From Roseiflexus sp. (GTDB lineage Bacteria > Chloroflexota > Chloroflexia > Chloroflexales > Roseiflexaceae), in contig JANXAL010000140.1 of the NCBI GenBank assembly GCA_025062325.1, forward strand, positions 1-64,000: a DNA stretch of 64,000 nucleotides, read 5' to 3'. Below the pieces are notes generated by a model that saw only the letters and a list, made by a program, of their open reading frames with translations, did not search any database and was not told the DNA's origin. Position numbers and translations under genes: made by a program. Position 1 is the first letter of the stretch. Each line of letters starts with the position of its first letter. Shown one piece after another: positions 5,312-64,000 of this stretch.

Positions 5312-6384
5312 GCGCAGCATCGACGGTTCAGACCCAGGCGACGTTGCAGCACCGCGTGGGATGGCGGCGCATCGGGCTGATACCAGCGCTGTTCCTGCTG
5401 CTGTTGACGACTGTGCTTCTCGGTGCAGGGATTGGCGCTGTCGCTGTGCCGCCGGATGTGATCGGCGCTATCCTGCTCAAGAAGATCGGCATCCTGATTG
5501 ATATGCCGGTCAGCGCGCAACAGGAGGCGATCTTCTGGACCATCCGCCTGCCGCGGGTGTTGCTCGGCGTGCTGGTCGGCGCGGCGCTGGCGGTGAGCGG
5601 CGCGCTGCTACAGGGTGTGTTTCGCAACCCGCTGGCTGACCCGGGCTTGATTGGCGTGAGCAGTGGCGCAGCGCTTGGCGCTGTGGCAGTCATCGTTCTT
5701 GGCCTGTCATCATTCGGATTGATGACCCTGCCGCTGGCAGCGTTCCTCGCTGGCACAGCGACGACGCTCCTCGTCTATCGGCTGGCGCAGCGCCATGGAC
5801 GCACCGATGTGGCAACTTTGCTCCTCGTCGGGCTGGCGCTCAACGCGCTGGCTGGCGCAACCACCGGATTGCTGACCTATCTGGCAGATGATGCGCAATT
5901 GCGATCAATCGTGTTCTGGACAATGGGTGGACTGGGAGGCGCACTCTGGGAGACTCTGATCGTCGCCGCACCGTTGATCGGCCTGGCATTGCTGCTGGCG
6001 CCGCACCTGGGGCAGGCGCTCAACCTGTTTGCGCTCGGCGAGATTGAGGCGCGTCATCTGGGCGTAGATGTTGAACGGGTGAAACGCGCAGCCGTTCTGC
6101 TGGCGGCGCTCGCCACCGGCACCGCCGTGGCGCTTGCCGGTCCTATCGGGTTCATTGGGTTGATCGTCCCGCACATCGTGCGCCTGATCGCCGGACCGGA
6201 TCATCGGCTCCTGTTGCCGGCCTGTGCGCTTGGCGGCGCCAGTCTGCTGGTGCTGGCGGATTTGCTGGCGCGCACAATAGCGGCGCCTGCCGAAATCCCG
6301 GTTGGATTAATCACTGCGTTTGCGGGAGGACCTTTCTTCCTGGCGCTGATCCTGCGCGCCAGGCGACAGTATGGCTGGGGATAG
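5308..6384 (+). CDS. hmuU: Heme/iron ABC transporter permease (FecCD family)
   Basis: The inner-membrane channel subunit (358 residues) with about nine or ten hydrophobic segments. FecCD hallmarks are all present: IRLPRVLLGVLVGAALAVSG, then GVFRNPLADPGLIGVSSGAALG, the GLALNALAGATTG segment, and near the C-terminus GPIGFIGLIVPHIVRLIAGPDH and EIPVGLITAFAGGPFFL. Translation is coupled to hmuT through a GTGA overlap. It pairs with the ATPase and lipoprotein upstream. A second, degenerate relative of this permease lies at 8715, which may reflect duplication within the island. Confidence 0.9.
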   Translation: MSAASTVQTQATLQHRVGWRRIGLIPALFLLLLTTVLLGAGIGAVAVPPDVIGAILLKKIGILIDMPVSAQQEAIFWTIRLPRVLLGVLVGAALAVSGALLQGVFRNPLADPGLIGVSSGAALGAVAVIVLGLSSFGLMTLPLAAFLAGTATTLLVYRLAQRHGRTDVATLLLVGLALNALAGATTGLLTYLADDAQLRSIVFWTMGGLGGALWETLIVAAPLIGLALLLAPHLGQALNLFALGEIEARHLGVDVERVKRAAVLLAALATGTAVALAGPIGFIGLIVPHIVRLIAGPDHRLLLPACALGGASLLVLADLLARTIAAPAEIPVGLITAFAGGPFFLALILRARRQYGWG

Positions 6385-61408: not shown

Positions 61409-62380
61409 ATGTCACATCTCTGGCGGCTGGCGCCGTTTCTTATCGGCTTGGGTGCAGGAGTGGCGGTTGGTCCGACGGCGTACCGCGCCACAGAGGCGCT
61501 GCGCTTGATGATCTTCAGCACGCGCCAGCCATTGTGGCGCTACCCTGCCGATCTGAACCTCCACGCTGAGGATGTCACCTTTCCATCGCAGGATGGCGTC
61601 ACGCTGCGCGGCTGGTTCATCCACCGAGCGAACGACGACGGCTCGCCCGCACCCGCGATTGTGTTCATTCACGGTTGGCCCTGGAACCGCTGCGGCAACC
61701 GCGCTGGCGCGACGATACTCCCCGATCGCACGATCGATTTTCTCGAACCGGCAGCCGCCCTCAGCCGCGCCGGGTTTCACGTGCTGCTCTTCGATCTGCG
61801 CAACCACGGTCTCAGCGACGCCAGGATACCGGTGACATTCGGCGTCAACGAGGCGCGCGATGTGATCGGCGCGGTAGCGATGTTACGCGCGCGGCAGGAC
61901 GTGGACGGCGAGCGGATCGGGCTGATCGGGTATTCGATGGGGGCGAACGCCGCACTGCGCGCTGCGCCCGATTGCGCCCCCATCCGCGGCATTGTCGCCG
62001 TACAACCGACAAGCGCGCCAGTATTTGCGCCGAACACCGCGCGCGACGTGCTTGGTCCTGCCGGTCCGGCGCTGATCCAGATGGGCGGGCTGATCCACCA
62101 GGCATTCGGCGCACCGTCATTCGGCGCAATTGCGCCAGCGGCGTGGGTCCACCGCCTGCGCGATACCGACGTGCTCTACATCCAGGGTTCTGGCGACCGC
62201 TGGGGATCGCTGGCGGATGTCGAGGCAATGGCGGCGAACACCCCGCGCGCGCGCCCGGTCGTCGCAGCGCCATCGAACGAACGGTACGGCGGGTACCTGT
62301 ACGTCGCAGAACACGTGGACGAAATTATCGCATTTTTCAGGGAGACGTTGAAGGTGGAAGGTGGGAAGGTTGAACGTTGA
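61409..62380 (+). CDS. Membrane-anchored alpha/beta hydrolase
   Basis: 323 residues. An N-terminal hydrophobic anchor (APFLIGLGAGVAVG) precedes the fold. The oxyanion strand is IVFIHGWPWNRCGN, the nucleophile elbow is GLIGYSMGANAALRA (Ser), the acid is probably Asp in IQGSGDRWGS, and the His near the C-terminus is in AEHVDEIIAFF. Peptidase S15/BAAT-like esterase layout; substrate unknown. The last nine residues (LKVEGGKVER) are encoded by a CCTTC/GGAAGG-type intergenic repeat, so the natural end may have been extended by repeat intrusion. It is divergent from the gamma-glutamyltransferase gene. Confidence 0.82.
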   Translation: MSHLWRLAPFLIGLGAGVAVGPTAYRATEALRLMIFSTRQPLWRYPADLNLHAEDVTFPSQDGVTLRGWFIHRANDDGSPAPAIVFIHGWPWNRCGNRAGATILPDRTIDFLEPAAALSRAGFHVLLFDLRNHGLSDARIPVTFGVNEARDVIGAVAMLRARQDVDGERIGLIGYSMGANAALRAAPDCAPIRGIVAVQPTSAPVFAPNTARDVLGPAGPALIQMGGLIHQAFGAPSFGAIAPAAWVHRLRDTDVLYIQGSGDRWGSLADVEAMAANTPRARPVVAAPSNERYGGYLYVAEHVDEIIAFFRETLKVEGGKVER

Positions 62381-62650
62381 ACGTGGTAAGGTTGACGCCG
62401 TTGTGGGGGCGGCCTGGAGGATTTCCTGCCCCGGTATCGCCCTGCGACCGGGAACCGGGCGATTATTGGTGCAACCCGGCGGTCTCGTTGGGGCGGGCCA
62501 GCGGACGTGACCGTCACCAATGGGTGGCAGGCGGCGGCACCGGATGGGGGCAGACACGGGAGACCTACCCCCTACAAATGTGGGTGTTCATTGGCGCTGC
62601 TCCTGGTGGAGCAGGCTCAGGGTCTTGCCCCTGCGAACATGAACCTGGCT
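62381..62650. other. Intergenic region with a dispersed repeat fragment
   Basis: The stretch 62400-62480 is, on the minus strand, a relative of the GGTCGCAGGGCGATACCGGG-type unit seen at 59321-59476. No gene or terminator recognised. Confidence 0.5.
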
Positions 62651-62818
62651 CTAGGAATTGATGATGCTGCGCACGTCGAGACCGGCAATATGCTGAAAAT
62701 CGCCTGGATTGTGGGTTACCAGCGGAATCCGGTGTCGGAGCGCGGTTGCTGCAATCCGTAGCGCTCGCGTGTCGCCCTTGTACGATACGACATTTGTGTC
62801 CAGCAGCACGATTGTCAT
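62651..62818 (-). pseudogene. Internally deleted VapC-type PIN toxin
   Basis: A 55-codon frame. Its first part is a VapC N-terminus (TIVLLDTNVVSYK, first PIN Asp kept) and its second part a VapC C-terminus (AATALRHRIPLVTHNPGDFQ, then HIAGLDV). About 70-80 residues of the middle, including the second and third acidic residues, are missing, with the frame kept. The RBS GAGGAAGG is intact. The product should have no nuclease activity. It follows a VapB-like gene by 41 bases in normal antitoxin-toxin order. Confidence 0.8.
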
Positions 62819-62859
62819 GCCTTCCTCGTTCGATCAGCACGACGCTGTTGGGTGACAAA

Positions 62860-63105
62860 CTAATTGAAATCGTCGGCAGTCTCATCTTCAGGCCAGAAAT
62901 CGACCGCCAGAGCACGAATATCCGTGATGACCGGCGCGGCCTGCGCTATCTCGTCAATTGATCGTGGCGACCAGAATGCTTCACTCGCGGCTGTCAGAGC
63001 GTACCATTCGCGCACATCGCGTGAAATGACCTCCAGCAGCTCGAGTTTATCATTTAGCGAAAGAGTGCGAGCAGCGTCCAGCACCTGTTGCAGTTGCGGG
63101 GTCAT
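62860..63105 (-). CDS. VapB-like antitoxin
   Basis: 81 residues, acidic, helical. The opening LQQVLDAARTLSLNDKLELLEVISRDV is the style of small antitoxins of PIN-toxin systems in cyanobacteria and Chloroflexota (addiction-module component type). The C-terminal part (AVDFWPEDETADDFN) is acidic and probably neutralises the toxin. ATG at 63105 has a very strong AGGAGGTG. Its toxin partner is truncated, so this gene is a survivor of an inactivated module and may still regulate its own promoter. Confidence 0.7.
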   Translation of the reverse strand: MTPQLQQVLDAARTLSLNDKLELLEVISRDVREWYALTAASEAFWSPRSIDEIAQAAPVITDIRALAVDFWPEDETADDFN

Positions 63106-63425
63106 ATACTTTCACCTCCTGATGGATCGAGCCCTGGAAACGCCTTTCCACGGAAGAATGGGTATGCCATCGTCGATAGCTTTTTGATCCAGATTCTTCG
63201 TGCCTTTGCGCCTTTGTGCGAGCTACATTGCTCTTACCCGGTATTGTACCCTTCCTGCGCTTCTGGTGCAAAGAGAGAAGCCCCTTGCCACACCCCCGCC
63301 CCACGCCCTATAATGCGCATAGGCGTCTTTTGCTCTGGCGCTGGAGCAATGCGTTCAGGCAGCGCATCCGAACGTGCCGCCAGACCATTATCCAAAAGCC
63401 CTTCGCACCTTTGCGTCAATAGTTA
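63106..63425. other. Intergenic region between antitoxin and CHAT-like gene
   Basis: It holds fragments of the TTCGTGCCTTTGCGCC and CCTTTGCGTCAATA repeat words, a hairpin TTGCTC-N8-GAGCAA near 63330-63349 and a promoter at 63285. No gene. Confidence 0.5.
63285..63314 (+). promoter_or_regulatory. Promoter of the CHAT-like gene
   Basis: TTGCCA (63285-63290), an 18-bp spacer and TATAAT (63309-63314). The leader to the GTG at 63426 is about 105 bases. Confidence 0.55.
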
Positions 63426-64000
63426 GTGAAGGTGACCGACGACATCCCCCGCCTCAAGCAGGAAATCGCCGAATTGGAAAAGGCGCTGGAACAGGTCGCT
63501 GGCATCCCGGCGGCTGCGGCGGCGCTGCGCGCTCGGATTGACGAGAAGCAACAGCAGCTCGCGGCCCTCGAAAGCGCCTTCCACGCGCCCAGGGTCAGCG
63601 GTCCGACTGTCGGCAAGATCACCGCGCGTGAGGCGAATGTTGCCACCGAGCAGACGATCCTCCACGGCGCGCCCGACGCCGGTGCGCCCCCGGCGTCGGG
63701 CGGCGTCCCTGGCGCAGGCGCTGCGTCTGAGATCACCGGACCGCGAGTTGAGGGGATCGAGGCGGATGAGGCGAATATCGCCACCAGGCAAACGATCGTT
63801 CGCAACGCACCTGCCGCGCCGCTTGTCGTGCTGGCGGCACGCGCCGCGCCGCGCGGCGCTCCCACGCTTGCCTAGGATGTCGAGGAGCGGGCGTTGCGCG
63901 ACTGCCTGGCGCCCTACCCGGATCGCTTCCGCTTCGAGCCGCTGCCACGCGCCACGCTGGACGACCGCCACCAGACGTTGCTGCGCCTCCAGCCGTCCTA
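63426..64000 (+). pseudogene. CHAT-like protease gene, 5' part, interrupted by an amber codon; continues beyond the window
   Basis: The frame opens with GTG at 63426 (or 63432). Residues 1-52 form a coiled coil (DDIPRLKQEIAELEKALEQV). A linker follows with two copies of a GP-V-I-A-EAN-AT-QTI motif (about 56-80 and 102-124). After a TAG at 63873-63875 the same frame continues DVEERALRDCLAPYPDRFRF and ATLDDRHQTLLRLQP to the window end. This is the usual opening of a CHAT (caspase-like) domain, where LALD or LRLDxE would replace the stop. So the gene is either disrupted by a nonsense mutation or depends on readthrough. The catalytic His/Cys region lies outside the window. Confidence 0.6.

Follow-up and report, generated by a model that had tools for sequence, protein, structure and literature searches.

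A single recent nonsense change has probably knocked out a chromosomal CHAT-protease gene in the genome of this Roseiflexus sp., which would be a case of ordinary gene loss. In conflict systems, CHAT domains are putative effectors. The interrupted gene comprises 310 codons in all and spans positions 63426–64358 on the plus strand, and it thus extends past the end of the window, by which we mean the 64-kb stretch that was analyzed, bases 1–64000 of the 124-kb contig C65 of the source genome (G000; 4.73 Mb in 143 contigs, 96.8% complete). All five close orthologs are uninterrupted and carry TGG (Trp) where the source genome has an amber codon, which makes the amber specific to this lineage. A first-pass annotation of this DNA had offered a real nonsense mutation, a phase-like switch, or a sequencing error as explanations for the interruption, and it is the first of these three that is best supported by the comparison with the orthologs.

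Results

The interrupted reading frame is opened by GTG 63426 and ended by the TAG after 149 codons, and beyond the TAG the same frame remains open for a further 160 codons up to a TGA outside the window (Table 1). When the frame was read past position 64000, neither a second stop nor a frameshift was found in the 310 codons, and old decay, for which downstream frameshifts would have been a sign, is thereby ruled out. The continuation encodes a CHAT domain, as had been proposed from the sequence up to the window end: the part after the TAG matches PF12770 (CHAT) with 37.0 bits, the read-through protein with 36.4 bits, and the ortholog from genome G011 with 46.4 bits, at a cut-off of 24. The CHAT catalytic dyad consists of a His in an HG motif and a Cys in an AC motif. 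In the source genome, these motifs are present as LNHG and LSAC, both 3' of the TAG, and they align with the HG and AC motifs of the structure 8tl0. The stop that had been noted is confirmed, but it had been placed ahead of the CHAT domain, and it actually lies inside, between the first CHAT strand (LVVLAA) and the first helix (helix 148–161 as modeled, with low confidence, for the G011 ortholog). This AlphaFold model (3 rows; mean pLDDT 53, pTM 0.38) is weak, and its fold matches are supporting only; the order of strands and helices and the top fold matches are those of CHAT domains and caspases, with TM values, normalized by query length, of at most 0.37.

Table 1. Features of the interrupted CHAT gene and its upstream region.
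Feature	Position	Strand	Remarks
Sigma-70-like promoter, TTGCCA-18-TATAAT	63285..63314	+	11/12 matches
N-terminal part, 149 codons	63426..63872	+	Predicted coiled coil (about codons 1–53), two similar linker stretches, and first CHAT beta-strand; from the model of the G011 ortholog
In-frame amber TAG	63873..63875	+	TGG (Trp) in 5/5 orthologs
Remaining CHAT domain	63876..64000	+	Runs outside the window to TGA 64356–64358 (L003 6356–6358)
Possible restart, GAGGAG and, six bases on, TTG (63894)	63882..63896	+	Putative; 18 bases past the TAG; 154 codons

In the region ahead of the gene, the good promoter that had been described is borne out as a pattern, and the same TTGCCA-18-TATAAT promoter is also found upstream of the orthologs in G012 and G013, while it is absent at G011. 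For most of the region 62351–63432, the G013 locus offers no match. The region includes a 55-aa frame on the minus strand (62651–62818) that resembles a VapC/PIN toxin minus its middle, with scores below the cut-offs of both models (PIN 17.2 bits, cut-off 23.6; VapC 19.9 bits, cut-off 140), and for the adjoining 81-aa frame at 62860–63105 a family match was sought and none was found. Codon 3 of the CHAT gene (63432–63434) is GTG in the source genome versus ATG in G011 and G012, and the likelier start codon at this position may also have been weakened in the G000 lineage. On the 3' side, the gene is followed by a tRNA-Asn gene on the opposite strand, an amidase gene, and a second CHAT gene of 822 aa, and this gene order is common to G000, G011, G012, and G013.

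A family-level search with the post-stop part covered 26 genomes, of which 13 matched, including the source genome. The five close orthologs that are open have 307–400 codons and belong to G011, G012, G013, and G009 of the same genus and to G005 of another genus, with identities over the post-stop part of 96% (G011), 93% (G012), 89% (G013), and 77% (G005 and G009). The open relatives combine a CHAT domain with a short coiled coil and a linker; in G005 and G009, the N-terminal part differs and is longer, and their sequences align with the locus over the CHAT part only and are regarded as putative orthologs for this part by similarity alone. Two paralogs, in G009 and G010, likewise have Trp at the amber position. 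A class-level search of 158 genomes gave matches in 26, and stops within the matches occurred in G000 (two), G011 (one), and G012 (one), of which the G011 and G012 stops and one of the two in G000 sit just upstream of start codons. Two peculiarities of individual relatives were also seen. In the G013 ortholog (L045, about 5990–6040), one extra base after the ATG shifts the start out of frame, and the gene would need a TTG start about 14 codons into the open frame; this extra base may represent another lesion of the same gene or else a fault of the assembly. In G005, the CHAT C-terminus occurs a second time in truncated form, as a 112-codon frame about 1.1 kb past the intact gene (L017 2418–2753).

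The difference at the amber codon is a base substitution that involves no slipping repeat or inversion, and with relatives that are invariant at this codon, the probability of a phase-variable switch is practically negligible. An assembly or sequencing error, or a collapsed minority strain, with an intact gene in the living population, has to be taken more seriously, as the assembly consists of 143 contigs and is not fully complete, and one wrong base would suffice. However, all 13 open reading frames of the source genome that match the syntenic G013 contig are free of stops, as are 10 of 10 in the reverse direction, in a control that considered frames of at least 100 aa with at least 75% identity and at least 60% coverage and that kept the longest of overlapping frames, by which some real genes, including the CHAT gene itself, were left out. 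As the 13 neighboring genes are stop-free, the local assembly looks sound, and there are further G000-specific changes at conserved sites that one isolated wrong base does not explain. We therefore consider an error unlikely, and less likely than a real nonsense mutation.

These further changes were identified by a strict polarization, in which a change was counted only where the sister sequence, G012, and G013 agree. In the CHAT half, G000 has nine nonsynonymous changes, the stop included, and nine synonymous changes, and G011 has one and four; in the N-terminal half, the numbers are three and five for G000 and four and six for G011. The difference between G000 and G011 in the CHAT half is not significant (Fisher P=0.25), with small counts. 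The probability of at least nine nonsynonymous changes among the 18 in the CHAT half of G000 is 0.0014 at an omega of 0.1, 0.018 at 0.16, and 0.096 under neutrality; the observed pattern would thus be improbable at the level of constraint of the other pairs, while it agrees with neutral change. The pairwise omega values of the CHAT part are 0.196, 0.161, and 0.166 for G000 with G011, G012, and G013, respectively, and 0.093 (G011–G012), 0.139 (G011–G013), and 0.163 (G012–G013) for the other pairs. With a looser polarization of the whole gene, 13 nonsynonymous and 19 synonymous codons were assigned to G000 and 7 and 16 to G011, with 8 left unpolarized. Among the nonsynonymous changes that G000 carries in this half, at otherwise conserved sites, are Y>R, L>R, and S>N next to the His-Gly motif, and none is located beyond column 224. 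In the final 87 codons there are three changes, all synonymous (P=0.033 under neutrality, for a cut at column 224 that was chosen post hoc), and such a clean tail would be expected if constraint continues or if the lesion is very young. Judged from these sequence comparisons, weakened selection on the CHAT half of G000 is suggested, albeit short of proof, and the lesion seems to be of recent origin. Diversity-generating retroelements alter A positions, and of the 18 polarized changes that G000 carries in the CHAT half, 14 are C>T or G>A. Mutagenesis by such an element, an idea prompted by PMC10907252, was rejected for this reason.

The same data bear on gene fission, in which the amber would end a first protein and a restart at TTG 63894 would give a 154-aa CHAT piece, and the two products may work together. 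This TTG is in frame, is CTG in the three syntenic orthologs, and is the only one of nine in-frame ATG, GTG, or TTG codons after the TAG that has a motif such as GAGGAG ahead of it; in addition, the break is predicted to fall in the loop that leads from the first strand to the first helix, and the clean tail would agree with a second product. However, the GAGGAG is a coding sequence that is present in G011 and G013 too, and the TTG is also found in G005 and G009, so chance suffices for the restart motif, and the substitutions close to the active site (S>N ahead of the His, L>R, Y>R) hardly point to a functional enzyme. Fission is thus quite unlikely, and it is very improbable that its result is a two-chain caspase-like enzyme, assembled from pieces that are translated separately and are divided between the first strand and the first helix; if this were so, nature would have produced a CHAT protease in two chains.

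The open and recognizable downstream frame could also be explained by amber suppression or programmed readthrough that yields the full-length protein. A suppressor tRNA, which had been considered earlier, was looked for with Rfam and ARAGORN, and none of the 46 tRNAs of the source genome has the anticodon CTA (Rfam found 46, ARAGORN assigned anticodons to 45, and the last has the loop TTGACAT, read by eye as GAC), although an unseen tRNA is possible in a genome of this completeness. None of the orthologs has a stop at this codon, and the other stops within matches of the class-level search sit upstream of start codons. We consider readthrough extremely improbable.

Discussion

The inactivation of the gene by a recent nonsense change thus remains the probable explanation. 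According to this model, a single base change would have turned the conserved Trp codon where the first CHAT helix begins into TAG; translation would stop after the coiled coil, the linker, and the first strand, and the portion bearing the catalytic His and Cys would be missing from the product. The full-length protein is presumably not produced. Other CHAT genes that are retained in the genome may explain why the loss is tolerated: a genome-wide search, which reports the locus with one TAG inside, found that seven of nine CHAT matches have no internal stop. A TGA stop is also present in a second CHAT fragment of the source genome (L012 1501–1656; C111:40583–40738), which is located about 1.5 kb past a further CHAT match of contig C111. 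The case resembles an ordinary nonsense pseudogene in having a single stop in a recognizable gene with open orthologs, and it differs in that the tail is still clean, and it would be a very young one.

The nearest solved structure, by sequence profile and by Foldseek, is 8tl0, named SAVED-CHAT in passages of PMC11417357. The two share the CHAT domain, with a profile E-value of 1.6e-11 over the CHAT part and a top Foldseek match of E 9.2e-08, for which the TM value is only 0.37 with the poor model, but the sensor half is SAVED in 8tl0 and a short coiled coil with a linker here. TPR-CHAT/Csx29 of Craspase is likewise a CHAT-type caspase-like protease, according to excerpts of PMC9729208 and PMC10028731, but Pfam reports no TPR repeats in our protein, and Csx29 is absent from its PDB sequence matches. 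The product of the gene was presumably a protease. The role as a defence effector that had been suggested stays conjectural, as no PADLOC family matched at E 0.01 for any of the four proteins scanned; NCBIfam gave no match for the CHAT proteins scanned either. Among the papers found on the CHAT domain and pseudogenes, none concerned Roseiflexus, judged by title. Effector-associated domains are treated in PMC7159879, as seen in an excerpt. Passages of PMC10907252 deal with conflict systems of multicellular bacteria, filamentous Chloroflexi among them, and describe the CHAT domain, which our gene shares, as a putative effector; the loci in these passages are tied to diversity-generating retroelements or ternary systems, and neither was seen among the neighbors scanned here.

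The result is mainly the correct annotation of a broken gene. With syntenic copies that are open in three relatives, it would represent the loss of a CHAT gene in one lineage, as is expected of conflict genes that are dispensable or costly.
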